Positions 24,203-44,659 of a stretch of 64,000 nucleotides of DNA are shown here, one piece after another. How positions within the stretch are numbered: the first letter of the stretch is position 1; the number at the start of each line of letters is the position of its first letter. The translations under genes were made by a program, and so were the position numbers. Origin of the DNA: Gammaproteobacteria bacterium. GTDB taxonomy: Bacteria; Pseudomonadota; Gammaproteobacteria; Pseudomonadales; Halieaceae. The stretch is from positions 1 through 64,000 of the forward strand of contig JAUIEP010000003.1 of assembly GCA_030428835.1 (NCBI GenBank). Direction: 5' to 3'. The notes below the pieces were generated by a model that saw only the letters and a list, made by a program, of their open reading frames with translations, ran no database searches and was not told the origin of the DNA.

Positions 24203-24262
24203 TAACGAGCAGGTAGCGTCACTAAATCCCGACACACAGACTAACACTATACTGTGACCACG

Positions 24263-24636: not shown

Positions 24637-24660
24637 ACGGCATGGGAGTGTTCTAAAAAG

Positions 24661-25557
24661 TCAGTCAAGAATGTACATCAACCCGACGGAAAACGTCGAG
24701 TCCTTGTGTTCTGTATCCAGGTCTCTGATGAGTATCGGGTTAGGCGAAGGAAGGATAGTCAGCTCTGCGCGGCCATTTTTTGATTCATAGTCTTGGAACT
24801 TCAGGCCAATCGTGTACGCCCAGTTTTCCGCGATACCAGCGCTCCATTGCAATCCGTAGCTGAGCCCCGTAGCAGTTCCGCTAAATCCGAGTTCACCGAG
24901 AGTAAGGTCTGCATTTGGCAATGGCTCCGACGGAACTTTGCTTTCAGAAAACTCTGAATCAAGCGACGCGTACGCCATACTGAAAGTCAGCGCCCCAATA
25001 TCACCAAAGTCTTGTGTATAGCTACCGCCAAGGAATAATCCATCTTCAACAAATTGCTGGTCCTTGTTTTGAAAGAGAAAATTAAATTCGAGTGATTCCA
25101 AATCCCAACGTCCATATTTATATCCCCCGAACAAGTTCCACCCTTTCCCATTATTGAACCCTGCAGTAAAGTTGAAATCGACCCTATCATACTCTGACCG
25201 ACGGCCATCGTTTCCCGGGAAGAAAGCTGTTTGACCCGGAACCGCCTCCACATTGACTTCGAGCGTGGTAGTTTCAGTCTGAGGAACTAAATCATATTGA
25301 GCAGTCAGATAAAAACCCTCATAGAACACCGTCGCGGAAAACATCGCGACATATATAGTTTCATCAAAGCTAATATCTGCAAACGCCGCTCCCACACCCG
25401 TGGAAACAGATGAAGTGCGAAACTCTACCTCTCTAACGCCAATTGATAACCCTGCAATATAACCAATCTCTTCGTCCGCGTGAGGCACTACTGAGAAACC
25501 GGAAGCTATGGCTGCGACTATGGCTACAGCGAACCTTCTAAATATTAGTTTTTTCAC
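24661..25557 (-). CDS. Putative outer-membrane beta-barrel protein
   Basis: Signal peptide MKKLIFRRFAVAIVAAIASGFSVVPHA; alternating aromatic/Gly strands (AGFNNGKGWNLFGGYKYGRWDLE). Confidence 0.65.
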   Translation of the reverse strand: MKKLIFRRFAVAIVAAIASGFSVVPHADEEIGYIAGLSIGVREVEFRTSSVSTGVGAAFADISFDETIYVAMFSATVFYEGFYLTAQYDLVPQTETTTLEVNVEAVPGQTAFFPGNDGRRSEYDRVDFNFTAGFNNGKGWNLFGGYKYGRWDLESLEFNFLFQNKDQQFVEDGLFLGGSYTQDFGDIGALTFSMAYASLDSEFSESKVPSEPLPNADLTLGELGFSGTATGLSYGLQWSAGIAENWAYTIGLKFQDYESKNGRAELTILPSPNPILIRDLDTEHKDSTFSVGLMYILD

Positions 25558-25617
25558 TTAAACAATCTCCTTATTGTAAGTCGTTTCAAACCCCGCGACC
25601 AAGCGAGAGTGTTTCGG

Positions 25618-27933
25618 CTAAAAGGTCGGAGTCGGAAACCTCCGCGAAACTTTCTTGGCAGAGGACATCTTGCGCTCAAATTCCGAACCCAGGGCCGGAA
25701 CGCCGAGGCCAGAAATCTCACTGCTCTCGAGCGCATTTTTATATACAAGCAGAAGATCGTCTCGCTTCTCAGACAAGTAATAATTGAATCGGGCCTGGAA
25801 AGATTCCACGACTTCCTCGGCGAGAGACTCCAAGCCCGCATGCGAGGCATCGATTCGCAACCCCTGATCGATCGATCGAAGCGCCTCAATATGCATAGCA
25901 GCCACCTCGCGCTGCGTGGCGAGAGAATCATCAGATTCGGGGAACGAGGCAATATTTTCGACGATATTTTGTGCCGCGGCGAGATACTCTGCCGCGCGCG
26001 CCCTATTACGTTGTCGCAACATGACGTCAGAACTGAACTCGCTCACTGCCTCATTCCCCTCGAACTTCGCTCCCAAGTAATCCGAAATTTCTACTGCGCG
26101 TGATATTTCCAATGAAGCCAGCGCGGCCCGGCCCTCGACAAGCTCTGCCGCTACGAGGGAGTTCAGCGCGGTCTGTGTCTGCCAATCTCTTGCATCAAGC
26201 GCAAGTATCTGTAAATTAATCTCAATAAGTTCACGCCGCTTAGAACTATCGGTTCCCAGGTTGGACGCCAGCTCATCGGCACGGTCATGCAACTTGCGCA
26301 GCCTAGAACGTTTGCTGTTAATCTGGGATTGTGCGACCTCAAGCGATTCACGGAGCGGATTAGAAACTTCTACAGACACAAATCTTTCTAGTTCGGTAAT
26401 AAGTTTATCCGCCTCGGACAGCAATCCGCGATCAATTCGATCCTGGATTTTCAGACTGGCTGCAGAAGTAATTCGCCGCTCCAGCGAGCCGAGCTCCCGA
26501 TAACCTGGGGCCACTTCTCTTAGGCGAGCCAGCGCGTGAAAAGCATTGGCCTGGCGCGGCATCAGGTAGGCGGACTGAGCTATCATCTGGCCTACTTCAA
26601 TAGCTAGGCTTTCGGTGAGCGCCTCCTTCTCCATAGCCTGCTCTCGCAGCCCAATGACACGAGCGAGTTCAACCTGGAGTTCCGGCGATAATGAGCCAAT
26701 ATTTGTAACAAGGTTAATCAACGCTTCCGCGCTCTCAATGCGCCCCTCCTCCAGCGCAATTTGTGCTTGTTCAAGGGTTTGCGCCGCCATATTGTTTCGC
26801 ATTTGTTCGCGAGCACGTTTATCAGCCTCTGATTTAGATAGGGCGTCTACCTGCTGTTCTGACTCGAGAGACAACTGGGAATCGGTAGCGTCAGCCCTGT
26901 CCCCGGTCTCAAGATAGGGAAACAGAACCAATACACCACCGACCACGAGCATTGTGCAAATAAGAGCAACTGACAGTTGCCTCAGTCGCTTGAAACGCAA
27001 TTCCTGTGCAGCTGCTCTGCGAGTCGCGTTTTTCCTTCTACGCGAACGAGTCCCAGACATACCAGACGCAAGCGAGTCTCCCAGTTCTGCATGGGGCTGG
27101 CTTTGCAGAATGGTGGTTGACAACTCTTCGGGCATGACTTGCCTGATCTGATCAATCGCCCAAATTAAATGCATGCCAGACTCGTATCGATACGCGGGCT
27201 CTTTCTCCAGTACTGTATCTACGACCTCTTGAAAGAGGCACATTTCAACGGGAAGCGGCGGAACTTCGGCAGACACATGTTGCAGGCCTACTGCAGCAGC
27301 ACTGTTAGCAGTGAACGGCGCCGTTCCGGATAACAGCTCATAGAACACGACACCGAGGCTATAGAGGTCTGACCTCAGATCCAGATCTTTCCCAAGCGCT
27401 TGTTCCGGACTCATGTACCTGGGTGTACCGAGGACTGCACCCGCCTGGGTAACCTCTGTATCTGCAGTAAGATCCCGCGCTATCCCAAAATCAACCAGGC
27501 AGACACTTCCATCCGAGCGAAACATTATGTTGGCAGGCTTGATATCCCGATGAATGACTCCCTGCTCTGATGCATAGTCAATCGCATCAGCGATAGATTT
27601 GACGATTTCCAAGGTTTCCAGCAGGGGAATGCCCGTCTTTAAGCGCTCCTTGAGGTCTCCTCCAGGGAGATATTCCATCGCTAGGTAGTAGTTTCCGTCG
27701 ACAGAACCCGTATCAAAGACCTGGACGATATTCGGATGGGTAAGGTGCGCTGCAATCCGCGCTTCGCGCAGGAACCGTCTGCCGAAGTGTTCGGTTTCAG
27801 CCCTGTTTGCAGTGAGAACTTTGAGCGCAACAAGACGGCCAAAGCTCGTCTGCTCGGCGAGATAGACACTGGACATGCCTCCCTCGCCGAGAGAATTAAT
27901 TACCTTATAGCCTGGGATGTAGATATTTGCCAC
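25618..27933 (-). CDS. Serine/threonine protein kinase with TM segment and long helical C-terminal region
   Basis: INSLGEGGMSSVYLAEQ, VIHRDIKPANIMF, VDFGIARD, GTPRYMSPEQ; TM LSVALICTMLVVGGVLVLFPYL. Confidence 0.95.
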   Translation of the reverse strand: MANIYIPGYKVINSLGEGGMSSVYLAEQTSFGRLVALKVLTANRAETEHFGRRFLREARIAAHLTHPNIVQVFDTGSVDGNYYLAMEYLPGGDLKERLKTGIPLLETLEIVKSIADAIDYASEQGVIHRDIKPANIMFRSDGSVCLVDFGIARDLTADTEVTQAGAVLGTPRYMSPEQALGKDLDLRSDLYSLGVVFYELLSGTAPFTANSAAAVGLQHVSAEVPPLPVEMCLFQEVVDTVLEKEPAYRYESGMHLIWAIDQIRQVMPEELSTTILQSQPHAELGDSLASGMSGTRSRRRKNATRRAAAQELRFKRLRQLSVALICTMLVVGGVLVLFPYLETGDRADATDSQLSLESEQQVDALSKSEADKRAREQMRNNMAAQTLEQAQIALEEGRIESAEALINLVTNIGSLSPELQVELARVIGLREQAMEKEALTESLAIEVGQMIAQSAYLMPRQANAFHALARLREVAPGYRELGSLERRITSAASLKIQDRIDRGLLSEADKLITELERFVSVEVSNPLRESLEVAQSQINSKRSRLRKLHDRADELASNLGTDSSKRRELIEINLQILALDARDWQTQTALNSLVAAELVEGRAALASLEISRAVEISDYLGAKFEGNEAVSEFSSDVMLRQRNRARAAEYLAAAQNIVENIASFPESDDSLATQREVAAMHIEALRSIDQGLRIDASHAGLESLAEEVVESFQARFNYYLSEKRDDLLLVYKNALESSEISGLGVPALGSEFERKMSSAKKVSRRFPTPTF

Positions 27934-28066
27934 TGGGCAACTGCCTCCAATCCCCCCAAAAAGTGACCCTAGAAACCCGACTACGGTTCGTGTTCACTTC
28001 CTTCCTCCCCTGCCTCAGAACAGCAGGGCCTCAGTGAAGCCTAGGGGAGCGGAATCCTTTCCAAGG

Positions 28067-29432: not shown

Positions 29433-29629
29433 AACAAGCTCCTTCTTTTATAAGCCCTGGATGGGGTGTGCTGGACGCACGTATGGGCGATAGCAATGAA
29501 GTGTAGACAAGTTTTCAATAGTCACACGAAATTTGCGCGCCGACCAGCTACCGCTAGACAGCAAGCGTAAACCCATGGTACTTGTGTTGGATATCCGACC
29601 GACACGAACTGGCACTGCACTGGCACTAC

Positions 29630-30364
29630 ATGACTGGCCCGGTTGAGTCACTGCGCCGCCTCGGGCGCGAACTGCGGCGCCGCGGCGTGACGCGCGCCTG
29701 CGTCGTCTACATCATCGCCTGCTGGGTGGTCCTGCAGGTCAGCGATATCGTGTTCAACTCACTCGAGGCGGACATGACCCTCGTCTCCCGGGGCCTGCTG
29801 GCGGCGGCCCTGCTGGGACTGCCGGTGGTGATCGCCATTTCCTGGTTCTACCAGTTTTCCGCCACGGGCGTACGCCGCACTACACCTTTCACGGAGCAGC
29901 GCGTGCTCGACAACATCGCCATGCTCGACGACCGCCGCAAGGATGCACCAAAGCGGGGCCTCCCGGCCCGCCACGCGGCGACCTACGACTGGGTACTGGA
30001 AGTCGACTCGGGGCCGCTGTCGGGCAAGCGCTACGGCGTGGAGGAAGATGTCATCGTGGGTCGCTCTTCCGGTTGCGAACTGACGATTCCGGTGGCGCAT
30101 ATATCGCGCCGCCATCTGCGCTTTCGCATCGACGACGACGGCCTGCTGCTCGAAGATCTCGGTTCGTCCAACGGCACGCTGTTAAACGGCCGTCAAATTG
30201 CCGGGCCAACCCTGTTACACCATCATGACGTGGTGGAAATTCCCAACGTGAAAATTCGCGTCCTTGAGAACCTGGCACGCGCGCGCAACACCGACGCGAC
30301 CACCCAACACACGTTGCAACTCGCGGCGGAGCGCAATCCCCATAAAGTCCCGCCAGAAACTTGA
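29630..30364 (+). CDS. Membrane-anchored FHA domain protein
   Basis: N-terminal two-TM module RRRGVTRACVVYIIACWVVLQVSDIVFNSLEAD...; FHA core VGRSSGCELTIPVAHISRRHLRFRIDDDGLLLEDLGSSNGTLLNGR. Confidence 0.9.
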   Translation: MTGPVESLRRLGRELRRRGVTRACVVYIIACWVVLQVSDIVFNSLEADMTLVSRGLLAAALLGLPVVIAISWFYQFSATGVRRTTPFTEQRVLDNIAMLDDRRKDAPKRGLPARHAATYDWVLEVDSGPLSGKRYGVEEDVIVGRSSGCELTIPVAHISRRHLRFRIDDDGLLLEDLGSSNGTLLNGRQIAGPTLLHHHDVVEIPNVKIRVLENLARARNTDATTQHTLQLAAERNPHKVPPET

Positions 30365-30472: not shown

Positions 30473-32968
30473 TTGGCTGAGAGCTACCACATCGCCATTA
30501 TTGGCGCTGGTCCGGCTGGGCTGAGTGCAGCCGGAAGAGCGGCCCACCACGACAAGGAGTCCGGGGCAAGCAATCCCACCTACGTCCTCCTTGAAGGTTT
30601 CTCGACCTTCGCGAAAACGATCCAGAAGTACCAGAAGGGCAAGCATGTCATGGACACGCCCGGCTTCCTGGACCTGCGCAGCCCCGTACCGTTCGTGGCC
30701 GGCACGCGGGAGGCCATCCTCGACGGCTGGCAGAACAGCATCGACACCGACGGCATCAACATCCGCTACAACAGCGAGGTGACCGCGATCGAGGGGGAGC
30801 GCGGCAACTTTTCCATCAAGACCTCGAGCGGCGAGACGATCAGCGCCGAGCACGTGATCATGTCGATCGGCACCCAGGGCAACCCGCGGACGCTCGGGGT
30901 TCCAGGTGATGCTGAATCTGACTTTGTGCTCTATACCCTTGATGATCCTGAAGAATTCCAAAAGGAGACCATCGTTGTCGTGGGCGCGGGCGACGCCGCG
31001 ATCGAAAACGCCATCGCGCTGGCCGAGTACAACAAGGTGTATATCGTCAACCGGCGCAACGAATTCAGCCGGGCGAAGGACGGCAACCTGAACGCGGTAC
31101 TCGCGGCCATCAACGACAAGAGCCGCGACTTCCACTGTTTCTACGAGACCAATATCGGCGGCCTGGAACTGCCGGACGCACCCGGCGCCGCCGGGGCCAT
31201 CATCCTGAACACGGCCACCGGCGAGGAGCGGGTGGAGTGCCACCGCATCATCGCCCGGCTGGGCACCCTGCCGCCGCGCAAGTTCGTGGAGTCCTGCGGC
31301 ATCGAGATCTCCAGCCCCAGCGCCGACGCGGTACCGGACGTCGACAACGAGTACATGAGCAACGTGCCGGGTCTCTACGTCATCGGCGCGCTCGGCGGCT
31401 ACCCGCTCATCAAGCAGGCGATGAACCAGGGTTATGACGTCGTCGAGTACATCCACGGCAACCACGTGGAGCCCGTGGACACGCCCATCCTGAAGAAGAA
31501 GTTCCAGGGCCTGCCGATCAAGATGCCCACCCCGGAAGAGGTTCTGAGCCTCTACCAGTCCAAGATCCCGATGTTCCGCCGCATGAACCCGCTCGCCTTC
31601 CGCGAGTTGATTATCGAGAGCCGCATCCTCGTCGGCCTCGAGCCGGGGGAGTTCGACCGGACCCCCGCGGACGACGACGAACACGCCACGGTTTTCATCA
31701 AGGACGGCGAGCCGGTGTACCAGCACGGCGAGTACTCCACCTCCTTCTATACCCTCGTGGAGGGCGAGGTGCGCATGCAGCTCGACGAGGACGGGGCCTG
31801 GCACGACATCAAGCCCGGGCAGTTCTTCGGCGAGATGAGCCTGATCTCCGGGCGCCCGCGCCAGGGCAGCGCCATCGCCGAACGCGACTGCATCCTGATC
31901 GAGACGCCGCGGCGTATCATGGTCAAGCTGATGAACTCCAACGAGGAGGTGCGCGCCGGCATCGACCGCGTCTTCATCATCCGCGCGCTGCAGTCGGCTT
32001 TCAAACCGAACCTGTCCCTGGCCGAGATGGCGGAGATCGCCGACAACGTCGAGTCCTGCCAGTTCAAGCCGGGCGAGGCGATCTTCCGCGAGGGCGAAGA
32101 AGGCGACGCGCTGCACCTGATCCGCTCGGGCACGGTGACACTCTCCCGCGGCAAGGAACAACTCGTGGTCGCCAAGCGCCACTCCGGCGAAATCGTCGGC
32201 CAGATGGCGCTGATGGGCTCACCCATGCGCCGCGACACCGCGACCGCCGCCGTCCGCGCCGAAACGCTCAAGGTGCGCCGCCCCGAATTCCTGAAGATGG
32301 CCAACAGCCAGCCCGATACGGTGGAGAAGCTCCAGGACGGCCTGAGCACCCTGCTGCGCCAGACCAACTCCATGGCGTCCCAGCCCGAATCCTCCCGCGC
32401 CATCGGCTTCCTGATGGACCAGGGCCTGGGCGAGGCGACCAACGCGCTGGTGATCGACGAGGCGCTCTGCGTCGGCTGCGACAACTGCGAGAAGGCCTGC
32501 GCCGAAACACACGGCGGCATCTCCCGCCTGCGCCGGGAGGAAGGCGCGTCGTTCGCGTCCCTGCACGTGCCCATCGTGTGCCGCCACTGCGAGCTGCCGC
32601 ACTGCATGAAAGACTGCCCGCCCGACGCCCTGCGCCGCTCGCCGACCGGCGAGGTCTTTATCTCGGACACCTGCATCGGCTGCGGCAACTGCGAGACGAA
32701 CTGTCCCTACGACGCCATCAAGCTGAGCTACCAGCCCAAGCCCAAGCCCTCCCTCTTCTCCTGGCTGTTCTTTGGCCGCGGCTCGGGACCGGGAGAGCCC
32801 GACAGCTTCACGCCGACTGATGCCTCCAAGAATTCCGGCAAGAAGGCCGTCAAGTGCGACGCCTGCATGAACCTGGCCGGCGGCCCGGCGTGCGTGCGCG
32901 CCTGCCCCACGGGCGCGGCGGTCAGGCTGGGCCCGGAACAGTTCATTGAACTGGTGGAGGCGCGCTGA
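30473..32968 (+). CDS. FAD/NAD(P) oxidoreductase fused to two cyclic-nucleotide-binding domains and a multi-[4Fe-4S] domain
   Basis: TTG start; HIAIIGAGPAGLSAAGRAA; VVVGAGDAAIENAIAL; cNMP-like GEYSTSFYTLVEGEVRM...GQFFGEMSLISGRPRQGSAIA and FKPGEAIFREGEEGDALHLIRSG; CVGCDNCEKAC, CRHCELPHCMKDCPP, CIGCGNCETNCP, CDACMNLAGGPACVRACP. Confidence 0.92.
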   Translation: MAESYHIAIIGAGPAGLSAAGRAAHHDKESGASNPTYVLLEGFSTFAKTIQKYQKGKHVMDTPGFLDLRSPVPFVAGTREAILDGWQNSIDTDGINIRYNSEVTAIEGERGNFSIKTSSGETISAEHVIMSIGTQGNPRTLGVPGDAESDFVLYTLDDPEEFQKETIVVVGAGDAAIENAIALAEYNKVYIVNRRNEFSRAKDGNLNAVLAAINDKSRDFHCFYETNIGGLELPDAPGAAGAIILNTATGEERVECHRIIARLGTLPPRKFVESCGIEISSPSADAVPDVDNEYMSNVPGLYVIGALGGYPLIKQAMNQGYDVVEYIHGNHVEPVDTPILKKKFQGLPIKMPTPEEVLSLYQSKIPMFRRMNPLAFRELIIESRILVGLEPGEFDRTPADDDEHATVFIKDGEPVYQHGEYSTSFYTLVEGEVRMQLDEDGAWHDIKPGQFFGEMSLISGRPRQGSAIAERDCILIETPRRIMVKLMNSNEEVRAGIDRVFIIRALQSAFKPNLSLAEMAEIADNVESCQFKPGEAIFREGEEGDALHLIRSGTVTLSRGKEQLVVAKRHSGEIVGQMALMGSPMRRDTATAAVRAETLKVRRPEFLKMANSQPDTVEKLQDGLSTLLRQTNSMASQPESSRAIGFLMDQGLGEATNALVIDEALCVGCDNCEKACAETHGGISRLRREEGASFASLHVPIVCRHCELPHCMKDCPPDALRRSPTGEVFISDTCIGCGNCETNCPYDAIKLSYQPKPKPSLFSWLFFGRGSGPGEPDSFTPTDASKNSGKKAVKCDACMNLAGGPACVRACPTGAAVRLGPEQFIELVEAR

Positions 32969-32970: not shown

Positions 32971-33843
32971 ATGCATGAGAGCCTTCTCAGCTGGCAGCGT
33001 TTCCGCTACCTCTATATCGCACTCGCGCTCGCGGGCGCCAGCATCGTCCTCTATATCACCCAGAGCGGCAACACCGCGCAGCCGCCCAACGGCGGCACCT
33101 GGCAGGGCTATACGCTGGGCACCGTCGGCGCCCTGCTGATCCTGTGGCTCAGCCTGCTCGGCATCCGCAAGCGCCAGTACAGTTCCAATGTCGGCTCGGT
33201 GCAAAGCTGGGCGTCGGCCCACGTCTACCTCGGTATCGCACTGCTCGTGGTCGCCACGCTGCACTGCGCCGCCCAGTTCGGCTGGAACGTGCACACACTC
33301 GCCTATGTGCTCATGTGCCTGGTCATCGGCACCGGCATCTACGGTCTCTACGTCTACCTGCACCTGCCCCGCGCCATGGCGCGCAACCACGCCGGCCGCG
33401 ACGTGAACAGCTGGATGAAGGAGCTGGGCGACGTGGACGACGGGATCCGCGACGCCGCGGGCAATGTCGACGCCGACCTGCAGGCAATGGTGTTGTCGGC
33501 GCTCGATCTCACCCGGCTGGGTGGCGGCGTCTTCGCGCAAATATTTGCACAGGACCGCTGCCGCGTGCAGACCGGCAGCGGCGTCATCTCCAACCAGGGC
33601 CAGCAGGCCCTGATCGACGAATTGTCCAGGCGCATACCCGACGCGCGCGTCGTCCGCGAGGCCGAGACGCTGAACGAGCTGATGGCGCTCTTCGGGCGGC
33701 GGCAGGTCATCCTGAACCTGCTGCGCAAGGACGTGCAGTACCGGGCGCTGCTCAAGATCTGGCTGTACTTCCACGTGCCACTGACCATGGCCCTGCTGGT
33801 GGCCCTGACCATTCACATCATCGTTGTCTTCCTCTACTGGTAG
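32971..33843 (+). CDS. Cytochrome-b-like multi-TM membrane protein
   Basis: About 4-5 TM helices with His in membrane segments (SAHVYLGIALLVVATLHCAAQFGW, LYFHVPLTMALLVALTIHIIVVFLYW). Confidence 0.65.
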   Translation: MHESLLSWQRFRYLYIALALAGASIVLYITQSGNTAQPPNGGTWQGYTLGTVGALLILWLSLLGIRKRQYSSNVGSVQSWASAHVYLGIALLVVATLHCAAQFGWNVHTLAYVLMCLVIGTGIYGLYVYLHLPRAMARNHAGRDVNSWMKELGDVDDGIRDAAGNVDADLQAMVLSALDLTRLGGGVFAQIFAQDRCRVQTGSGVISNQGQQALIDELSRRIPDARVVREAETLNELMALFGRRQVILNLLRKDVQYRALLKIWLYFHVPLTMALLVALTIHIIVVFLYW

Positions 33844-33847: not shown

Positions 33848-35581
33848 GTGCATTATCTGATCAGAACTCTCACAGGTCGCGGCCGGGACACAGCTCTCGA
33901 GACGGAATACTCCGCAGACCAGCTCACACTGGGCAGCGGCGAGAAGGACACGGTGCAGTTGCCGGGCCTGGCCGGACAGCTCCGCTTCAGCCCGACCGGC
34001 GACGGCGGCGCCAGTTTCTCGGCGAAGGGCATCAAGGCCACGATCGGCGGCGACAGCACCGCCAAGGCCAAACTGGCGGTCGGCGACCAGCTCCAGGTGC
34101 CCGGCTACGCGCTGGAAGTCATCGCGGCGCCGACCGGCTTCGATTTCGGGCTGCAGATCCAGTCCGAGGGCGTCAGCTACGCGGACAGCATGGAGGTCAG
34201 CGAACGGCTGTGGAGTATGCGGCGCTCGAGCTGGTTGCTTGCACTCCTGGTCCTCGTGCTGTGCTTCCTTATCCCCGTCGGGGTCCTGTTCTCCCCCGAC
34301 GTGGCGCAGACATTGCGCGACGCGCCACTGCCGGACGACGGCATGTGGTCCAGCGGCCCGCTGGTCAGCGCGCACTCCACGGCGGGCATCGCCGAGGACT
34401 GCCAGTCCTGCCATACCACACCGTTTGTGATGGTGAAGGACCAGGCCTGCCTGACCTGCCACCGCGACATCCAGGAACACGTGGACATCGGCATACACGG
34501 GGCGGAGGATTTCGCCGACGTACGTTGCGCCACGTGTCACCGCGAGCACAATGAGCCCACGACCATGGTGCGCATGGACAACGGCCTGTGCGTCGATTGC
34601 CACGCCGAGCCGGCCGACTTCCCGAAGGCCGAGGGCATGGCCGAGGCGCACAACTTCACGGCCGATGAGCACCCCGAATTCCGCATCGACCTGCTGGTGC
34701 CGAAAGGTCGCGGCGGTTCGATGAGCTGGGTCTACGAACCGCGTCGACTGAACGAGCCGGGTCTGGCCGAACAGTCCGGTCTCAAGTTCAACCACGACGT
34801 GCACCTGAACCCGGCCAAGGTGAAGAACCTGCAGACCGACGAGGCGCTGGACTGCGCCGCCTGCCACCAGCTGGAGGCGGACGACGAGCACTTCGCGCCC
34901 ATCACCATGGACGGCGAGTGCCGCAGTTGCCACGAGCTGGTCTTCGACAAGTTCGATCCCAAGCGTGAACTGCCGCACGGTAATACCGAGGCCGCGCTCG
35001 TGGCCATGGAGGCGCACTACATTCGCCAGTTCACCGACCCTGACCTGCGTGCCAAGCGCTCCGGCGGAGACAATGACGCCCGCTCGAGCCGCCGCAAGCC
35101 CGGCAGCAAGCCGAACGAGGGCGTGACCTGTAACGGCACTCCCTTCGAGTGCGGCCGCCAGGAGACCGAGCGCCAGGCCGGCGTCCAGTTCAGCAAGACA
35201 GGCTGCGTGACCTGCCACAACGTGGTCGATTCCATGAGCGACAACCTGCTCGACCGCTACTACGTGCAGCCCGTGCGGATCACGGGCGACTGGTATACCG
35301 GCAACCGATTCGATCACCGCGCCCACATGGCCTTCCAGGGCGAAAACCAGGATGAAGTCTGCATGAGCTGCCACGAGGTCATGACCTCGGGCCATGCCGA
35401 AGACATCCTGATTCCCGGCCGCGACAACTGCCTGGAGTGTCACGACGACAACCTGGGCGACACCACCGTTTACTGCGTCAGTTGCCACGCGTTCCACCTG
35501 CCCGCGGGCACCATGGCTACCGAAAGCCGGAACGTCGGCCTGATGCACCAAAACCCGCGCGAGAGCACTGAGGGAGAATAA
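33848..35581 (+). CDS. Decaheme c-type cytochrome with N-terminal FHA-like cytoplasmic domain and single TM
   Basis: GTG start (TTG at 33824 also possible); N-term beta-rich VHYLIRTLTGRGRDTALETEYSADQLTLGSGEKDTVQLPG; TM LLALLVLVLCFLIPVGVLF; ten CXXCH (CQSCH, CLTCH, CATCH, CVDCH, CAACH, CRSCH, CVTCH, CMSCH, CLECH, CVSCH). Confidence 0.85.
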   Translation: MHYLIRTLTGRGRDTALETEYSADQLTLGSGEKDTVQLPGLAGQLRFSPTGDGGASFSAKGIKATIGGDSTAKAKLAVGDQLQVPGYALEVIAAPTGFDFGLQIQSEGVSYADSMEVSERLWSMRRSSWLLALLVLVLCFLIPVGVLFSPDVAQTLRDAPLPDDGMWSSGPLVSAHSTAGIAEDCQSCHTTPFVMVKDQACLTCHRDIQEHVDIGIHGAEDFADVRCATCHREHNEPTTMVRMDNGLCVDCHAEPADFPKAEGMAEAHNFTADEHPEFRIDLLVPKGRGGSMSWVYEPRRLNEPGLAEQSGLKFNHDVHLNPAKVKNLQTDEALDCAACHQLEADDEHFAPITMDGECRSCHELVFDKFDPKRELPHGNTEAALVAMEAHYIRQFTDPDLRAKRSGGDNDARSSRRKPGSKPNEGVTCNGTPFECGRQETERQAGVQFSKTGCVTCHNVVDSMSDNLLDRYYVQPVRITGDWYTGNRFDHRAHMAFQGENQDEVCMSCHEVMTSGHAEDILIPGRDNCLECHDDNLGDTTVYCVSCHAFHLPAGTMATESRNVGLMHQNPRESTEGE

Positions 35582-35584: not shown

Positions 35585-37750
35585 ATGAAATGGCGTGCAC
35601 TATTGCTCAGCGGAGTTCTCGTCCTCGGCGCCTGCGGCGGCGGAGGGGGCGGCGGACCCGGCCTGGGCTCCTCCCCCGGCAACGACGATACGGGTAAATC
35701 GTGCGACGGTTTCTGCGCGGACGCCGGGGCACCCATCCGCCTGACGGTGGCGGACGTCAAGCAGATCCTGGCCCAGGCGCTGCACCAATCCACCGCACTG
35801 GAGGGCGCCGAGAAAACCACCATCGCGGTCGTGGACCGGGTCGGCAATGTGCTGGCAGTTCACCAGAAAGGCGGCGGCCAGACCCTGCGCATCACGACGG
35901 ACGACCCGAATCAGGTCAAGGCGGCGCTCGATGGCCTGACGATTCCCGCCGATTTCAGCCCGGACACGCTGGCCGCGATCGCCAAGGCCATTACGGGCGC
36001 CTACCTGTCCAGCGAGGGCAATGCATTCACCACCCGCACCGCCAACCAGATCGTGCAGGAACACTTCAACCCGGGCGAGCGCAACCAGCCGAGCGGCCCG
36101 CTGTTCGGCGTGCAGTTCAGCCAGCTCGCCTGCTCCGACTTTATGATGGCATCGCCCGAGCCGGGCACGAGCGTCGGTCCGCAGCGTTCGCCGCTGGGCA
36201 TGTCCGCGGATCCGGGCGGCCTGCCGCTGTACAAGAACGGCACTGTGGTCGGCGGCATCGGTGTCATCTCGGACGGCCTGTACGGCATCGACAAGAACAT
36301 TCTCAACAACGACCGCGACAACGATGAGATGATAGCGGTAGCGGGTACCTTCGGGTTTGCCGCTCCCAAGCCGCGACGCGCGGATCGCATCACGGTTGAG
36401 GGCAAGACCTTCCGCTACGCCGACGTCGACTTCGAGAATCTCCCGGTGTCGCCGGAAGATGCGCCGGCCTATGACTCACTCGGCGCAGAGATGGGAATGC
36501 TGCGCGCGGTAAACGGCTACACAGACGGAGCGATCGTCGCGGGCACGGCATTTACCACCCCGGAATCCGGCGTGCGCGCGGTGCAGGCGGGCGACTACCC
36601 ACCGGCCGACGTCGCGGACTTCCAGGCGCTGCAGGCGTTTACCTTCGTCGACGAGAACAACCAGGTGCGTTTCCCCCCGAGGGACGGCATGGACGCGGCC
36701 GAGCTGGCCCAGGCGGGCGGCGCGGCCCCGATTTCCGCCGATGAGGTCACGCAGCTGATGAAAAGCGCCCTCGGCGTCGCGTTGCGGGGTCGCGCGCAGA
36801 TCCGCACGCCGCAGAGCACGCCGATCCGGGTCACAGTTTCCGTCGTCGACTCCCAGGGCAATATCCTCGGCATGATGCGCACCCGCGACGGGCCCATCTT
36901 CGGCTCCGATGTTTCGCTGCAGAAGGCGCGCACCGCCACCTTCTTCTCGTCGAAGGATGCCGCTTCGGTACTGCGCTCCATCGACGACCTGACCTACATC
37001 CCCCTGCTGCAAGCAGACGGCTTTCCCCCACTCGGGCCTGTCCCGGATATCCAGTACCTTGAAATTGACCCCGTGATCGACCCGTCCGGCGTGCCGGTGG
37101 TCCGGCCGTACGGCGATCCCATCCTGGTCAGCGACTACGTGGCGGCGGCCAAGGCCTTCGTCGGCGCGGGCGCGCTGGAGGACGGCACCGCGTTCGCGGA
37201 CCGCTCCGGCGGCAACCTGTCGCGCCCGTTCTTCCCGGACGGCATTCGCAACACTGCCAACGGCCCGTTCAGCAAGCCCTTCGAACTGGCGGAGCCGGGC
37301 CAGGTGCAGTGGAGTGTCTTCTCGTCAGGACTGCAGCTGGACCTGGTCCTCGGGCGCATACTGCAGCACGTGCTGTTTGCACTGGGTGACCCTCGCGTCC
37401 CGGATGTCGGCAGCAACTGCATCGGTCTCGAGCCGGACGCACCCACCAGGATCAATAACGGTATCCAGATCTTCCCGGGCTCCGTCCCCATCTTCCGCGG
37501 CGACCAACTGGTCGGCGGCATCGGCATCTCTGGCGACGGTATCGACCAGGACGACATGATTTCCTTCCTCGGCCTGCACGAGGCGGGGCTCGCCCTGGCT
37601 GACGCCGGCGCGGCGAACCCTATCGGCAACGCACCGAAGGAAATGCGGGCAGACCAGTTGAAGCCCAAGGGCGAGCGCCTGCGCTACGTGCAGTGTCCAC
37701 AAACACCTTATATCGGAAGCAGCGAAAACTTCGTCTGCGACGGCAAATAG
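35585..37750 (+). CDS. Lipoprotein with two GlcG/HbpS-like (DUF336) domains
   Basis: Lipobox LVLGACGGGGGGG; LTVADVKQILAQALHQS...TTIAVVDRVGNVLAVHQ and second ISADEVTQLMKSALGVALRGRAQIRTP...VTVSVVDSQGNILGMMRTRDGPIFGSDVSLQKARTA. Confidence 0.8.
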   Translation: MKWRALLLSGVLVLGACGGGGGGGPGLGSSPGNDDTGKSCDGFCADAGAPIRLTVADVKQILAQALHQSTALEGAEKTTIAVVDRVGNVLAVHQKGGGQTLRITTDDPNQVKAALDGLTIPADFSPDTLAAIAKAITGAYLSSEGNAFTTRTANQIVQEHFNPGERNQPSGPLFGVQFSQLACSDFMMASPEPGTSVGPQRSPLGMSADPGGLPLYKNGTVVGGIGVISDGLYGIDKNILNNDRDNDEMIAVAGTFGFAAPKPRRADRITVEGKTFRYADVDFENLPVSPEDAPAYDSLGAEMGMLRAVNGYTDGAIVAGTAFTTPESGVRAVQAGDYPPADVADFQALQAFTFVDENNQVRFPPRDGMDAAELAQAGGAAPISADEVTQLMKSALGVALRGRAQIRTPQSTPIRVTVSVVDSQGNILGMMRTRDGPIFGSDVSLQKARTATFFSSKDAASVLRSIDDLTYIPLLQADGFPPLGPVPDIQYLEIDPVIDPSGVPVVRPYGDPILVSDYVAAAKAFVGAGALEDGTAFADRSGGNLSRPFFPDGIRNTANGPFSKPFELAEPGQVQWSVFSSGLQLDLVLGRILQHVLFALGDPRVPDVGSNCIGLEPDAPTRINNGIQIFPGSVPIFRGDQLVGGIGISGDGIDQDDMISFLGLHEAGLALADAGAANPIGNAPKEMRADQLKPKGERLRYVQCPQTPYIGSSENFVCDGK

Positions 37751-37766: not shown

Positions 37767-39629
37767 GTGAAAAGAAGCCTACTGTACTGTGCACTGGTCG
37801 CCGGTATTACCGGCGTGGCCAGCCTGTCCACCGCTCCCGTCCTGGCGCAGGATGGCGGAGAGAGCGCCGCGCAGGCGAGCGAGGATCGTCGCGACGCGCG
37901 CCGCCGCCCAGGCCGCAGCAACCGCAACGAGGAGTACTCGCGTGAGATCGTGGACGAAACCGCGCCCGGCGGCATCCGCGAGGAAAAAGTGGAGAAGCGC
38001 ACCGGCGGCGGCCGCTACGTCCTGCCGCGCAAGTACCGCAATACACCGCGCCCGACCGAAGACCACTTTGTGGATTCCATACCGATCCCCGATCGCTGGC
38101 GCATCATGGACAACTTCTACCCGGGCAATATCTGGGACCCCTACAACAACCAGAACGTCCTCAAAGGCGACGTGCCGCTGCACGACGACTGGTTCTTCAA
38201 CGTCATCGCCATCAGCGACACGGTGCTGGAATTCCGCCAGGTACCGACGCCGGTGGGCGTGCAGAGCACGCGCGATGCGGGCGACCTGGATGTACTCGGC
38301 ACGACGGAGCAACTCACGTTCAGCCAGAGCCTCCCGATCGAGTTCGTGTACTACCAGGGCAACACCGTGTTCAAGCCACCGGACTGGGAATTCCGTTTCA
38401 CGCCGGTGTTCAACTACAACTACACCGAGTTGGAGGAAATCACCGGGGTGAACGCCAACCCCGACGATGAGGCACGGCGCCACGACGACCACGTGGGCAT
38501 CCAGACGCTGTTCGTCGACAAGCACCTGCGCAACGTCTCGGATCGCTACGACTTCGACAGTCTGCGGGTGGGCATCCAGCCCTTTTCCAGCGACTTCCGG
38601 GGCTTCCTGTTCCAGGACGTGCCGTTCGGCGTGCGCCTGTTCGGCACGCGCGACAACAACATTTTCCAGTACAACCTCGCCTGGTTCCGGCGCATGGAGA
38701 AGGACACCAACAGCGGCCTGAACGACGTCACGGAAGACCTGCGCGACGACGACGTCTTCATCGCGAACCTGTACTGGCAGGATCTCGGCGTGAAAGGCTT
38801 CTTCTCCCAGGCGACCGTCGCGTACAACCGCAACCGTGAAGACTCGATCTTCTACGACAGCAACAACTTCATCCAGCGACCGGCCTCCATCGGCCAGGAG
38901 CGGCCGCGCACGTACGACGTCTACTACCTGGGCTACAACGGCGACGGGCACTTCGGGCGCCTCAACCTGACCGTGTCCGCGTACCTCGCCCTGGGCGAGG
39001 AGGACAACGGCGTGTTCAACGGGGAGAATTCCGACATCGAGGCGTTCTTCTTCGCCGCCGAGCCGGGTATCGACTTCGACTGGATACGCCTGCGCGGTTC
39101 CTTCCTCTACGGTTCGGGTGACGACGACCCCTATGACAACAAGTCACAGGGCTTCGACGCGATCTTCGAGAACCCGCAGTTCGCGGGTGCCGATACCAGC
39201 TACTGGATTCGCCAGGGCGTGCCGCTCATCGGCGGCGGCCGGGTTGCGCTGCAACAGCGCAACGGCGTGCTCAACTCGCTGGAGTCCTCGAAGGAACACG
39301 GCCAGTCCAACTTCACCAACCCCGGCGTAATCCTGGTCGGCGGCGGCGTGGACCTGGACGTCCTGCCCGAGTTCCGGCTGAGCTTCAACGCCAACTACCT
39401 GGCCTTCGCCGAGACCGAGGTGCTGGAAGTGGCGCGCGCCCAGTCGAACGTCGACGAGGAGATCGGTATCGACCTGTCCGCGGCGATCATCTGGCGGCCG
39501 TTCATGAGCCAGAATGTCGTGGTGCGGCTGTCCTACGCGCAGCTGCTCGCCGGCGACGGCTACGAAGACCTGTACGGCGATGAAGACGATCCCTACTCCA
39601 TCCTGCTCAATACGACCCTGACCTTCTGA
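37767..39629 (+). CDS. Putative large outer-membrane beta-barrel protein
   Basis: Signal peptide MKRSLLYCALVAGITGVASLSTAPVLAQ; repeated amphipathic strands; C-terminal PYSILLNTTLTF ending in Phe. Confidence 0.7.
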   Translation: MKRSLLYCALVAGITGVASLSTAPVLAQDGGESAAQASEDRRDARRRPGRSNRNEEYSREIVDETAPGGIREEKVEKRTGGGRYVLPRKYRNTPRPTEDHFVDSIPIPDRWRIMDNFYPGNIWDPYNNQNVLKGDVPLHDDWFFNVIAISDTVLEFRQVPTPVGVQSTRDAGDLDVLGTTEQLTFSQSLPIEFVYYQGNTVFKPPDWEFRFTPVFNYNYTELEEITGVNANPDDEARRHDDHVGIQTLFVDKHLRNVSDRYDFDSLRVGIQPFSSDFRGFLFQDVPFGVRLFGTRDNNIFQYNLAWFRRMEKDTNSGLNDVTEDLRDDDVFIANLYWQDLGVKGFFSQATVAYNRNREDSIFYDSNNFIQRPASIGQERPRTYDVYYLGYNGDGHFGRLNLTVSAYLALGEEDNGVFNGENSDIEAFFFAAEPGIDFDWIRLRGSFLYGSGDDDPYDNKSQGFDAIFENPQFAGADTSYWIRQGVPLIGGGRVALQQRNGVLNSLESSKEHGQSNFTNPGVILVGGGVDLDVLPEFRLSFNANYLAFAETEVLEVARAQSNVDEEIGIDLSAAIIWRPFMSQNVVVRLSYAQLLAGDGYEDLYGDEDDPYSILLNTTLTF

Positions 39630-39638
39630 GTGACTGCC

Positions 39639-42600
39639 ATGAGAACCTCGACAACAAAGTTCCGTAGCCTCTCTACCATCGGCCGCTTCGCGCTGGCCGC
39701 ACTGGTGGCAGGGTTAGCCTGGGCCGGCCCGGTAAGCGCGGCATCAAAGCTGGTGGCCGTGGAGCGGGATTACATCACCGCGCCGGACGCGCCGCCGAGC
39801 CAGACCGCGGCCGCCGTCGCCGCCAAGTCGGACGGCTGCGAGAGTTGCCATACGTCGACAGACCAGAAGACCATGCACGCCAACCCGGCGGTGAAACTGG
39901 GCTGTACCGACTGCCACGGGGGCAGCGCCGACGTGTTCCGCCCCGACGGTACGTCCAGCCTCAGTGAGGCGCCCTACCTCAAGGCGATGGAAGCGGCCCA
40001 CGTACTGCCGCGCTACCCGGACGCATGGCACTACCCGTCCAGTGCCAACCCCGAGCGCACCTATACCCTGCTCAACAAGGAGAGCCCGGAGTTCGTCAGG
40101 TTCATCAACCCGTCTGACTACCGCATCGCCAGGGAAGCCTGTGGCGCCTGCCACCTGTCTATCATCCAGGCCGCCGAGCGCAGCCTGATGGCCACCTCCG
40201 CCATGCTGTGGGGCGGCGCCGCCTACAACAACGGCATCCTGCCGTTCAAGCGCTACATCCTGGGCGAGGCCTACAACCGCGAGGGCGTCGGCGTCAGCCT
40301 CGTCAACCCGATCGAGCCCACCGAGGAGATGACCAAGGCGGGCATCCTGCCGCAGCTCTACCCGCTGCCGGCCTGGGAGACCATCCATCCCGGCGACATT
40401 TTCCGCGTGTTCGAGCGCGGCGGGCGCAACATCAGCAACGTGTTCCCGGAAACCGGCCTGCCGAACGCGCTGGGCCTGCTGCAGCGCATCGAGGAGCCGG
40501 GCCGGCCCGACTTCCGCCAGTCCAACCGCGGCCCGGGTACGGGTGCGCGCATCGCGGTGCCGGTGATCAACATCACCAAGACCCGCCTGAACGACCCGCA
40601 TACGTGGTTCATGGGCACCAACGACCAGCCCGGTGACTTCCGCCATTCCGGCTGCGCGTCGTGCCACGTGGTCTACGCGAACGACCGCGATCCGCGCCAC
40701 TCCGCCGGCTACAGCCAGTTCGGCCACACCGGCAGGACGCAGACCGCCGACCCGACCATCTCCAGGGAGGAGAAGGGCCACCCGCTGAAGCATGAATTCA
40801 CGCGGGCGATACCGAGCAGCCAGTGCATGTCCTGTCACATGCACCAGCCGAACATGTTCATCAATACCTACCTCGGCTACACGATGTGGGACTACGAGTC
40901 AGACGCACCGCGCATGTGGCCCGAGAAGCAGTTCTATCCCACGGACGAGGAACGCCACGAGACACTCGAACGCAACCCGGAGGGCGCGTCCCCGCGCGGC
41001 AAGTGGAAGGACATCGAGTTCGTGGAGCAGGTCTCCGAGATGAACGACCAGATGCAGGACACCCAGTTTGCCGACTATCACGGCCACGGCTGGAACTTCC
41101 GCGCGATCTTCAAGCGCGACCGCGTGGGTAACCTGCTCGACGCCGAGGGCAACATCGTCAGCGACGATGATCCCGAGAAGTTCGACAAGGCGGTGCACAT
41201 GTCCTCCATCCACGTGGATGTGGGCATGCACTGCGTGGACTGTCACTTCGCCCAGGACAACCACGGCAACGGCCATATCTACGGTGAAGTCGCGGCCGCG
41301 GTCGAGATCGACTGCAAGGACTGCCACGGCTCCGCCGACGCCTACCCGAACCTGTATACCTCGGGTCCGGCGGCCCTGGAGGGCGGCACCAACCTGGGCG
41401 CGATCCGCAACCCGGACGGCCGCCGCCGTTTCGAGTGGGTGGGCGACAAGCTCATACAGCGCTCCGTGCTGAATCCCGACCTCGAGTGGGAGATGAGCCT
41501 GGTCAAGGACACGGTGACCAAGGGCAATCCGAACTACAACGCGAAAGCGGCCCGCGCCAAGCTCATGAGCAACGACACCGCCAAGCAGGACTGGGGCGCG
41601 AGTGTTGCGAAAGAGGACCGCGCGCACTCGGATGACGACATCGAGTGCTACACCTGCCACACCTCCTGGACCACGAGTTGCGGCGGTTGTCACCTGCCGA
41701 TCGAGGCCAACAACAAGACCGAGCGACACCACTACGAGGGCGGCGAGACGCGCAACTACGCAACCTACAACCCGCAGGTGGCGCGCGACCAGATCTTCAT
41801 GATCGGCCGGCGCGAGGTGGCCAAGGGCGGCAAGATCGCGCCGGTGCGCTCGACCTCCGCGCTGGTGCTGTCGTCGACCAACTCCAACCGCGAGAAGATC
41901 TACGTGCAGCAGCCGCCGATGGCTGCCTCCGGGTACAGCTCGCAGGCCATGAACCCGCACTTCCCGCACACGGCGCGCAAGACCGAGACCCGGGTCTGCG
42001 ACGATTGCCACCTGTCGAAGGAGAAGGACAACAACGCGATCATGGCGCAGACGCTGATGTACGGCACCGACTTCATCGACCTGCTGGGCTACCACGCCTA
42101 CGTGGGCAGCGAGGAGCACATCACGCCGGTGCAGGTCACGGAGTGGCAGGAACCGCAGGCGGTGATCGGCAGTTACCTGCAACGCTACGCCTACCCCGAT
42201 TACTTCGGGGAGCACCAGGCGAACGGCAAGGTGCTGCAGCACGGCTACCCGCACAGCAGCGGCCGGGCCGGCTGCATCCAGCTGCGCGGCGAGTACCTGT
42301 TCGTCGCCGAGGGCGATCGCGGCATGCAGGTCTACGATGCCGCGAGCGTGGCCAACAAGGGCATTTCCCAGCGCGTCATCACGGCGCCCTTCAGCCCGCT
42401 GGGCCACGACACGCGTATCGAAAGCAGCAACGCCACCTGCGTGGCGCTGTCGACGACGCAGCCTGTGGCGCCGAAGCGCTTCGACGACAAGTACGAACTG
42501 ATGGTGGAAACCAACCTCGAACAGCCGTTCCAGGACCACTATCGCTACGCGTACATCACGGACGCCGAGGAAGGCCTCATCCTGACGAACCTGGACACGC

Positions 42601-43385
42601 TGAGTGACGGTGAGCCGCGCAACAACTTCATGGACCGCGCGCTCACGTGGAACGACGGCGGCGTGCTGGACGGGGCGCGGCATATCATCCTCGGCGGTTA
42701 CTACGCCTACATCATCGCCGATGCCGGCCTGGTGGTCGTGAACCTGGAGGATCCCCTGAATCCGGTGCACGAGGCGACGGTGCCGCTGAACAACGGCCAC
42801 TCGGTGGCGCAGCAGTTCCGCTACCTGTTCGTGACCGATGCCGACGGCCTGAAGGCGATCGACATTACCCACCCGACCAGGCCGAAGCTGGTGGCCAACA
42901 ACACCATCGCGCTGGCCCAGGCCGGCCGACTGCACCTGGCGCGCACCTACGCCTACGTGGCGGCGGGCTCCGAGGGCATGGCCATCGTGGACATCACGAA
43001 ACCGGAGAGCATGAAGCTCCACCAGATGTTCAGCGATGGCCTTGTGGACAGCCGGGATGTTACTGTAGCCACCACGAACGCCTCCCTGTTCGCTTACGTG
43101 GCCGACGGCAGGGGTGGCCTGAAGGTGATACAGCTGACCTCGCCGGACAGCCAGCCCAAGTTCTACGGCTTCAGCCCGGAACCGAAGCCGGAACTGATCG
43201 CGAGCTACCCGACCAAGTCGCCGGCGCTGTCGCTGTCGCGCGCCCTGGAGCGGGACCGCGGTGTTGACGAGACCGGCGGGCAGGTCGCGGTATTCGGACG
43301 CGTGGGCTCGCGCCCGCTGAACCTGGAAGAGATGCAGAAGCTCTTCCTCGATGATCAAGGCAAGCCATGGTATGTAGAAAACTAG
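39639..43385 (+). CDS. Decaheme c-type cytochrome fused to C-terminal LVIVD-type beta-propeller repeats
   Basis: Ten CXXCH (CESCH, CTDCH, CGACH, CASCH, CMSCH, CVDCH, CKDCH, CYTCH, CGGCH, CDDCH); repeats YLFVAEGDRGMQVYDAAS, YAYIIADAGLVVVNLEDPLNP, YLFVTDADGLKAIDITHPTRP, YAYVAAGSEGMAIVDITKPES, FAYVADGRGGLKVIQLTSPDS. Confidence 0.88.
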   Translation: MRTSTTKFRSLSTIGRFALAALVAGLAWAGPVSAASKLVAVERDYITAPDAPPSQTAAAVAAKSDGCESCHTSTDQKTMHANPAVKLGCTDCHGGSADVFRPDGTSSLSEAPYLKAMEAAHVLPRYPDAWHYPSSANPERTYTLLNKESPEFVRFINPSDYRIAREACGACHLSIIQAAERSLMATSAMLWGGAAYNNGILPFKRYILGEAYNREGVGVSLVNPIEPTEEMTKAGILPQLYPLPAWETIHPGDIFRVFERGGRNISNVFPETGLPNALGLLQRIEEPGRPDFRQSNRGPGTGARIAVPVINITKTRLNDPHTWFMGTNDQPGDFRHSGCASCHVVYANDRDPRHSAGYSQFGHTGRTQTADPTISREEKGHPLKHEFTRAIPSSQCMSCHMHQPNMFINTYLGYTMWDYESDAPRMWPEKQFYPTDEERHETLERNPEGASPRGKWKDIEFVEQVSEMNDQMQDTQFADYHGHGWNFRAIFKRDRVGNLLDAEGNIVSDDDPEKFDKAVHMSSIHVDVGMHCVDCHFAQDNHGNGHIYGEVAAAVEIDCKDCHGSADAYPNLYTSGPAALEGGTNLGAIRNPDGRRRFEWVGDKLIQRSVLNPDLEWEMSLVKDTVTKGNPNYNAKAARAKLMSNDTAKQDWGASVAKEDRAHSDDDIECYTCHTSWTTSCGGCHLPIEANNKTERHHYEGGETRNYATYNPQVARDQIFMIGRREVAKGGKIAPVRSTSALVLSSTNSNREKIYVQQPPMAASGYSSQAMNPHFPHTARKTETRVCDDCHLSKEKDNNAIMAQTLMYGTDFIDLLGYHAYVGSEEHITPVQVTEWQEPQAVIGSYLQRYAYPDYFGEHQANGKVLQHGYPHSSGRAGCIQLRGEYLFVAEGDRGMQVYDAASVANKGISQRVITAPFSPLGHDTRIESSNATCVALSTTQPVAPKRFDDKYELMVETNLEQPFQDHYRYAYITDAEEGLILTNLDTLSDGEPRNNFMDRALTWNDGGVLDGARHIILGGYYAYIIADAGLVVVNLEDPLNPVHEATVPLNNGHSVAQQFRYLFVTDADGLKAIDITHPTRPKLVANNTIALAQAGRLHLARTYAYVAAGSEGMAIVDITKPESMKLHQMFSDGLVDSRDVTVATTNASLFAYVADGRGGLKVIQLTSPDSQPKFYGFSPEPKPELIASYPTKSPALSLSRALERDRGVDETGGQVAVFGRVGSRPLNLEEMQKLFLDDQGKPWYVEN

Positions 43386-44659
43386 TCGCCGCCTGTTGCG
43401 CACTGCTCCTGACCGGGGCGGTGCAGGCGGCGCCGCTGCCGGACTCCGGGACCAATGTACACGAGGGCGTTGCGAGCTGTTCCAACAGCGTCTGCCACGG
43501 CAAGAAAGCACCCAGCAGCGACGCACCCGTGCTGCTCAACGAGTACACCACCTGGATCGACGAGGACCAGCACTCCCAAGCCTACGCAACGCTGAAGTCG
43601 GAGCAGTCTGTGCGCATCGCGCAGAACCTGGGCCTGCCGAACGCGCACACCGCCGATATCTGCCTGGACTGCCACGCGGACAACGTCCCCAAGGACAAGC
43701 GCGGCGACCGCTTCCACATCAATGAAGGCGTGGGCTGCGAGGCCTGCCACGGCGGCGGCGGGCGCTGGCTGGAGTCCCACGCGGAGAAAGGCACCTCCCA
43801 CGCGGACAACCTCGCCAAGGGCATGTACCCCACCGAACAGCCCATGGAACGGGCCCGGCTGTGCCTCGCCTGTCACCTGGGCACCGAGCGCAAGTTCGCG
43901 ACCCACGAGATCATGGGTGCGGGTCATCCGCGCCTCGCCTTCGAACTGGAGCTGTACACGGTCTTCCAGCCGCGGCACTACGAGACCGACGCGGATTACC
44001 GCAAGCGCAAACCGTTCATCCCCTCGGTCAATATGTGGCTGGCCGGATTGCTGGTCTCCAGCGAGCGCACCCTGGAACTGCTGCAGGAGGACTGGTTCAC
44101 CAAGCGCAGCCTGGTGCCGGAGCTGTCGTTTTTCCAGTGCCACGCCTGCCACCACCCCCTGGATGACCTGCGCTGGCAGCCAGAGGGCGGGGACGCCGCC
44201 CTGCCCCCGGGGTCGGTCAGGCTGAATGACGCCTCGTTGCTCGTGCTGCAGTCGGTGCTCGAGATCCTGGGTAACAACACCGCGGGCGCTATCCGCAAGG
44301 GCATCAACAAACTGCACCAGTCGACCATGCAGGACCGCGCCGCGGTAACCGCTGCCGCGGCGGAAATGGAGAAGCTACTGCCGCCTCTTGAGCAGGCCGT
44401 GATCGACCGGGACTACGGCGTGGAAGACATGAAGAAGCTGCGCGCGGGCATCCTGCAGGCTGCGGCCAAGCAGCGGTATCGCCATTTCACCGCTGCTGAA
44501 CAGGCCTACATGGCCGTGGAAAACCTGTGTATCGAACTGAAGGATGACAAGCGCCTGCAGGCAAACCTCGACGAGTGGTTCGCCATTGTAGAAAAGGAGA
44601 ATGAGTTCAACCCACAGCAGTTCGCCGCCTCTGCCAACAGGTTCCTGGGTGCTTTGTGA
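43367..44659 (+). CDS. Cytochrome c554-like multiheme protein (four CXXCH plus one CX4CH)
   Basis: VASCSNSVCHGKKAPS (CX4CH), CLDCH, CEACH, CLACH, CHACH; signal peptide. Confidence 0.85.
   Translation: MVCRKLVAACCALLLTGAVQAAPLPDSGTNVHEGVASCSNSVCHGKKAPSSDAPVLLNEYTTWIDEDQHSQAYATLKSEQSVRIAQNLGLPNAHTADICLDCHADNVPKDKRGDRFHINEGVGCEACHGGGGRWLESHAEKGTSHADNLAKGMYPTEQPMERARLCLACHLGTERKFATHEIMGAGHPRLAFELELYTVFQPRHYETDADYRKRKPFIPSVNMWLAGLLVSSERTLELLQEDWFTKRSLVPELSFFQCHACHHPLDDLRWQPEGGDAALPPGSVRLNDASLLVLQSVLEILGNNTAGAIRKGINKLHQSTMQDRAAVTAAAAEMEKLLPPLEQAVIDRDYGVEDMKKLRAGILQAAAKQRYRHFTAAEQAYMAVENLCIELKDDKRLQANLDEWFAIVEKENEFNPQQFAASANRFLGAL

Follow-up and report, generated by a model that had tools for sequence, protein, structure and literature searches.

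The window analysed here comprises 64,000 nucleotides of contig JAUIEP010000003.1 from a marine gammaproteobacterium of the family Halieaceae. Its forward strand carries a series of redox and signalling genes, one of which (g4, 33848–35581) encodes a multiheme cytochrome joined to an N-terminal domain of the forkhead-associated (FHA) type. The reading frame of g4 is complete, and its GTG start at 33848 aligns with the ATG starts of its relatives. The 577-residue product begins with about 110 beta-rich residues that make up a degenerate FHA domain (33848–34174), followed by a linker, a single transmembrane segment and a decaheme domain of the c3/c7 type, predicted to be periplasmic. The transmembrane segment (LLALLVLVLCFLIPVGVLF, residues 130–148, 34235–34291) is the sole hydrophobic segment of the protein, with a Kyte-Doolittle mean of 3.14, and is flanked on its N side by MRRSSW. 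Ten CXXCH heme-attachment motifs follow (34400–35488), at residues 185, 201, 227, 248, 336, 358, 453, 505, 528 and 543. The three-part layout read from the DNA letters in a preliminary description is therefore all present in the protein. The gene occurs as a single copy in its source genome, and its closest named relative, from Pseudohalioglobus lutimaris, is 52% identical. Scanned on its own against Pfam, the protein matches the c3, c7 and doubled-CXXCH families. Assignment to MtrA/MtoA (DmsE-family decaheme cytochromes) was rejected, as TIGR03508 scored 35.4 bits against a cut-off of 192.2; so were QrcA (NF041781, 25.8 bits against a cut-off of 180) and ActA (best match E 0.065 in a PDB search).

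Relatives of g4 were found at 38 loci in Gammaproteobacteria and Alphaproteobacteria (in the GTDB sense). Because 38 homologous ORFs from many families have the same layout, with one member (L070) devoid of the FHA part, this layout lies far beyond chance. Exactly ten CXXCH motifs are present in 36 of the 38 homologues and nine in the other two. One genome holds a second, very divergent copy of g4 and its two upstream partners (L053, G049:C114), in which g4 is 755 residues long and has a large insert among the hemes. Since c-type hemes are attached in the periplasm, here on the C-terminal side of the only transmembrane segment, and since the flank of that segment is of the positive-inside kind, the protein would be oriented N-in, with the FHA domain in the cytosol and the decaheme domain in the periplasm. 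Positive-inside counts agree with this orientation in 33 of the 38 family members, which supports the original proposal of a cytosolic domain joined directly to a periplasmic heme wire.

The resemblance of the N-terminus to an FHA fold, also proposed at the outset, is supported by homology across the family and not from g4 alone, as a Pfam FHA match was not found in the window protein itself. The same domain is present in 37 of the 38 relatives, and among the 14 that were scanned, seven match Pfam FHA (PF00498) and nine match the FHA-related YscD_cpl model of the YscD cytoplasmic domain (PF16697). Furthermore, hhalign comparison of the N-terminal family with the window's own canonical FHA domains gave a probability of 95 and an E-value of 4e-8, and when a profile of the family was compared with the PDB, all top matches were FHA structures (GarA, TB39.8, Rv1747, OdhI and kinesin; E 3e-7 to 2e-4, the best being 3e-7). 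A similar length and an FHA-like pattern (conserved Gly, VN/DG, L..GD) are kept in 37 of 38 members across classes. Structure prediction, from which the preliminary description had expected a check, did place FHA structures first, but weakly: an AlphaFold model based on three sequences is all-beta with 12 strands, where an FHA beta sandwich has eleven (pLDDT 72.6), and its Foldseek matches, EssC FHA structures being among the best, reach only E 6.7e-3 (above 1e-3) and a TM-score of 0.42. A second model, of the more FHA-like relative L019, was poor (pLDDT 69.5, with the other four models at 41–57), so that its fold search was meaningless and was given no weight. The sequence evidence for FHA homology is decisive and the structural evidence only consistent with it. 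As the relatives match Pfam FHA and the family profile matches solved FHA structures, the domain is, on homology, a genuine and locally degenerate FHA domain; the alternative of an unrelated beta domain was rejected on the grounds that relatives match FHA directly.

Immediately upstream of g4 lie two genes with which it forms a conserved trio. The first, g2 (30473–32968), encodes an NAD(P)/FAD oxidoreductase domain, two cNMP-binding domains and a ferredoxin-like region, whose 16 invariant cysteines would hold four predicted [4Fe-4S] clusters. The second, g3 (32971–33843), encodes a membrane protein that carries a pair of WX3HX13H motifs as well as TGIYG, a form of the S/TGXXG motif, and is a predicted di-heme b protein resembling the inner-membrane protein (IMP) of the PCC3 and PCC4 conduits. 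Only 2 bp separate g2 from g3, 4 bp separate g3 from g4, and 3 bp separate g4 from g5; in nearly every one of the 38 loci the genes of the trio follow one another directly or at a short distance. Farther upstream, g1 (29582–30364), 108 bp before g2, encodes a membrane protein with one canonical FHA domain and has no clear association with the cluster. The 16 Fe-S cysteines are invariant in all 30 g2 homologues, among which the first (FAD) GxGxxG motif is found in 28 and the second Rossmann motif in 30; the first cNMP domain shows a conserved Gly-Glu...Arg pattern, and g2 matches PF13247 with 36.9 bits (cut-off 26.2). Likewise, both WX3HX13H motifs are present in all 37 g3 homologues, most of which other than the window protein have SGXXG as the S/TGXXG motif. 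In two alphaproteobacterial genomes g2 and g3 are fused as one ORF of 1120–1125 residues (L073:4844-8203 and L074:3046-6420). Given the g2 motifs, the b-heme motifs of g3 and this fusion, the chain NAD(P)(H)-FAD-4x[4Fe-4S]-b-b-c10, as predicted from sequence, is anatomically complete.

Downstream, the order of genes continues with g5 (35585–37750), a lipoprotein-like relative of the heme-binding protein HbpS; g6 (37767–39629), a predicted outer-membrane beta-barrel, whose only match is a weak, sub-cutoff one to an outer-membrane porin model; g7 (39630–43385), a secreted decaheme cytochrome with LVIVD repeats and distant similarity to ExtM; g8 (43367–44659), a c554-like periplasmic cytochrome with four CXXCH motifs and one CX4CH; and the signalling genes g9 and g10. 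Across the family, g4 usually adjoins the HbpS-like protein, the barrel, the LVIVD decaheme cytochrome and the c554-like cytochrome. The set g5-g6-g7 is present in most of the 38 loci, and in several its members lie apart or beyond the fetched stretch. Genomes with g4 contain g7 in 24 of 33 cases, versus none of the 26 genomes without g4. The family is spread over many Proteobacteria, among them the Halieaceae, and is found on a group of Sphingobium megaplasmids; the iron-oxidising Gallionellaceae probably have it too. The megaplasmid pMSHV of Sphingobium herbicidovorans carries the cluster, with the g5-g8 set nearby on the other strand; its trio is annotated as 'cyclic nucleotide-binding domain-containing protein', 'hypothetical protein' and 'cytochrome c3 family protein'. 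Relatives of g4 occur on plasmids of about 0.9–1.3 Mb in 12 Sphingobium records (AP027331 and others), one of them typed as conjugative; the single record inspected, NZ_CP020539, holds the complete cluster. Within the window, whose GC content is 0.65, a patch at 24001–28000 has a GC content of 0.51–0.53; on the reverse strand it holds a second Ser/Thr kinase gene (25618–27933) and an unassigned ORF that looks like an outer-membrane protein (24661–25557).

We infer from this anatomy that the three proteins form a complex and that electrons take an outward path through it. They would start from cytosolic NAD(P)(H) and FAD, pass the four [4Fe-4S] clusters of g2, cross the membrane over the two b hemes of g3 and reach the ten periplasmic c hemes of g4, from which g8 and g7 could pass them through the barrel g6 to the outside. 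It would be possible to run the same path in reverse, and one could speculate that the cluster serves electron uptake, with extracellular or periplasmic donors feeding the c hemes, then the b hemes, and finally the quinone pool or NAD(P)+. We regard this as rather improbable. Halieaceae and Sphingobium, to our knowledge not iron oxidisers, are also among its members, and direction is not something that can be read from genome data. In favour of the idea, He et al. suggested that clusters of the PCC4 type allow Fe(II) oxidisers to take up extracellular electrons (PMC5566968), and a Forkhead-associated protein with ten hemes is listed for 27 of 87 Gallionellaceae iron oxidisers (PMC10734462). 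As for the other end of the outward path, the PCC4 model has quinone as its inner-membrane partner (PMC5566968), and by analogy the partner of the present trio may be quinone rather than NAD(P)H.

What the FHA domain contributes to this chain depends on its phosphate site. At the canonical GR, S..H and N positions the window protein has G-S, Q, F and G, so that none of the four phosphopeptide residues is kept and the earlier observation that GR..S..H is missing holds. Among the 37 domain-bearing members, 22 have the Arg, four the Ser, 28 the His and 26 the Asn. Arg, Ser and His are kept together in four members, all outside the window's clade, where many members retain Arg and His. On a tree of the cytochrome part only, ten of the 15 Arg-less members fall into one clade (support 100/100) that includes the window and five lie elsewhere, a distribution that corresponds to about four changes in all; in the Halieaceae-type subclade of the window's clade the His is also absent. 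The tree is unrooted, and loss rather than gain of the Arg is favoured because the universal FHA pattern has it; on these alignments, the missing residues in the window's clade look like a derived loss. Retention of Arg and His outside that clade suggests that the ancestral role of the fused domain may have been phospho-dependent.

That the fold is kept in 37 of 38 members while Arg, Ser and His are lost in the window and its nearest relatives fits a domain retained for a role other than phosphothreonine binding. Most likely, the degenerate domain would now serve for docking without phosphate, keeping the cytochrome attached to g2 on the cytosolic side. In type III secretion ring proteins such as YscD, an FHA-like domain before the transmembrane segment acts in assembly, and the docking role suggested here would resemble it by analogy. 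It might be argued instead that the domain is a relic of little function, mainly an N-terminal anchor or a translocation-neutral leader. The natural family member L070 (G400, 9012-10454, reverse strand) has no FHA domain at all in an operon that looks intact, and since g3 ends about 20 bp before g4 there, the domain is absent rather than misannotated and hence not indispensable; the domain also changes a little faster than the protein as a whole, the window and L018 being 45% identical in the domain and 53% over the full length. A relic would hardly be expected to keep its length and FHA-like pattern in nearly all members across classes, and we consider this explanation doubtful.

The signalling genes beside the cytochromes raise a further possibility. 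The first of them, g9 (44656–45642), begins within the last bases of g8 and encodes a PP2C-type Ser/Thr phosphatase. The product of g10 (45800–46903) has two canonical FHA domains and, after them, a transmembrane segment, and g12 (49385–50968), near the cluster, encodes a Ser/Thr protein kinase with a transmembrane segment. The pair of PP2C and tandem-FHA genes lies directly downstream of the cytochrome genes in the window (44656–46903) and near L045, L046, L047, L048, L049, L050 and L056. Amid the kinase and phosphatase genes is also an autotransporter beta-domain protein (47891–49366), with homologues near the cluster in L047, L048 and L058. Adjoining the kinase gene, 50973–53714 encodes a caspase-like (Peptidase_C14) protein with a Sel1 repeat and a long probable coiled-coil region, and similar genes are found near the cluster in L047 and L058.

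Of the 27 genomes with usable contigs, nine have a PP2C gene no more than about 12 kb away from g4; without linkage, 0.53 would be expected. Eight of these nine belong to the window's clade, and in the ninth (G318) a PP2C and a kinase gene directly follow g4. Furthermore, the tandem-FHA gene stands beside the PP2C gene in all eight testable genomes of that clade, the one with the Arg-less fused domain. It would be tempting to see here a phospho-switch in which the nearby Ser/Thr kinases and PP2C phosphatase control phosphorylation of g2 or of some other partner, the phosphorylated site is bound by the cytochrome's FHA domain, and signalling gates electron flow. The GR, H and N residues retained in many relatives, and the four members that keep Arg, Ser and His, would suit such a switch. 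However, the linkage is at its strongest in the very clade in which the fused FHA domain has lost the Arg and, in the Halieaceae, the His as well; separate canonical FHA proteins (g1 and g10) in the window are better suited to reading phosphorylation; and, as the genomes are related, the nine linkages are not nine independent events. We therefore give a simple phospho-switch less weight and deem it unlikely, and for the window protein we favour docking over phospho-reading. A more elaborate version would have the cytosolic domain read the phosphorylation or nucleotide-signalling state of the NAD(P)H-Fe-S partner and switch electron flow to the surface, so that extracellular electron transfer would be under kinase control; the fused domain of the window's clade would then have become a pseudo-FHA, with sensing moved to the neighbouring PP2C and tandem-FHA proteins. 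This last idea is speculative, and we think the chances are slight that it is correct.

Our preferred reading, to which we give about an even chance, is that g2, g3 and g4 make up an inner-membrane electron-transfer complex on an outward path, in which g4 would be the membrane-anchored cytochrome subunit and its FHA fold a phosphate-independent docking domain. The absence of g5-g7 from the vicinity of g4 at several loci counts against it. In broader terms, g4 belongs to a widespread, uncharacterised gene set that probably conveys electrons from metabolism in the direction of the cell surface. Descriptions of known extracellular electron-transfer systems begin at the quinone pool and lead outwards. 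The trio would constitute a continuous redox chain that starts at a cytosolic flavin and Fe-S protein and ends at periplasmic hemes, and domains of a regulatory type (two cNMP folds and one FHA fold) would be built into the redox wire itself. If electron flow were gated at the trio, cell signalling would be tied directly to extracellular substrates, whether these are respired or exchange electrons with the cell.

Among described systems, the nearest is PCC4, a conduit predicted by He et al. (2017, PMC5566968) in which a porin and multiheme cytochromes are joined by an IMP, Fe-S proteins and further redox proteins. Both systems have an IMP of about 300 residues with S/TGXXG and two WX3HX13H motifs, the latter being the basis on which two b hemes were ascribed to the PCC3 and PCC4 IMPs (PMC5566968), and both include other redox proteins, an outer-membrane barrel and multiheme cytochromes and occur in Alpha- and Gammaproteobacteria. 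As in PCC4 subgroup II, a pfam13247 Fe-S protein is encoded upstream of the IMP, here g2, 2 bp ahead of g3; in g2 the Fe-S region shares one protein with FAD and cNMP domains. The periplasmic cytochromes of PCC4 have 4, 5 and 10 hemes, whereas here there are ten in g4, ten in g7, and four CXXCH plus one CX4CH in g8. The FHA and cNMP domains of g4 and g2 are absent from the description of PCC4 in the main text (PMC5566968). Because the IMP and Fe-S proteins are shared and the heme numbers differ, and because PCC4 was compared by description only, we class the cluster as a predicted PCC4-like porin-cytochrome conduit and not as PCC4.

The combination of an FHA annotation with ten heme motifs has been recorded once before by name. 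Cluster 403 of a 2023 Gallionellaceae pangenome, a 'Forkhead-associated protein' with 10 CXXCH in 27 of 87 Gallionellaceae iron-oxidiser genomes, is tabulated under 'Other' without description or model (PMC10734462, Table 1) and, matched by name, is likely to belong to the g4 family. Full-text literature searches for an FHA-multiheme fusion, for LVIVD with multiheme cytochromes and for cNMP with FHA and decaheme cytochromes gave no description beyond PMC10734462 and PMC5566968, and no mention of FHA was found in papers on Sideroxydans and Leptothrix. The phosphothreonine-binding proteins GarA, OdhI and TB39.8 share fold and sequence homology with the N-terminal family; unlike them, the FHA domain of g4 lacks the phosphate-binding Arg, Ser and His, is tethered to the membrane and is fused to a cytochrome. 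YscD-type ring proteins and EssC likewise place a cytosolic FHA-like fold next to a transmembrane segment, an analogy of use only, as these belong to secretion machines without hemes. ActA of alternative complex III and QrcA, both weak matches of g4, have one N-terminal transmembrane segment followed by periplasmic c hemes and are part of membrane oxidoreductases, but they have no cytosolic FHA domain and their families carry fewer hemes. ExtM, a c-type cytochrome of the selenite/tellurite reduction operon, is a distant match of g7 (65.6 bits against an 800-bit cut-off), from which it differs by the C-terminal LVIVD repeats of g7. The preliminary description was right to call the architecture unusual, but it is not a one-off, being conserved in 37 of the 38 relatives, and a 10-heme Forkhead-associated protein was already tabulated in 2023 (PMC10734462). 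We conclude that the FHA-TM-c10 architecture is unusual, not unique, and is an undescribed variant within the predicted porin-cytochrome conduits with one prior sighting by name.
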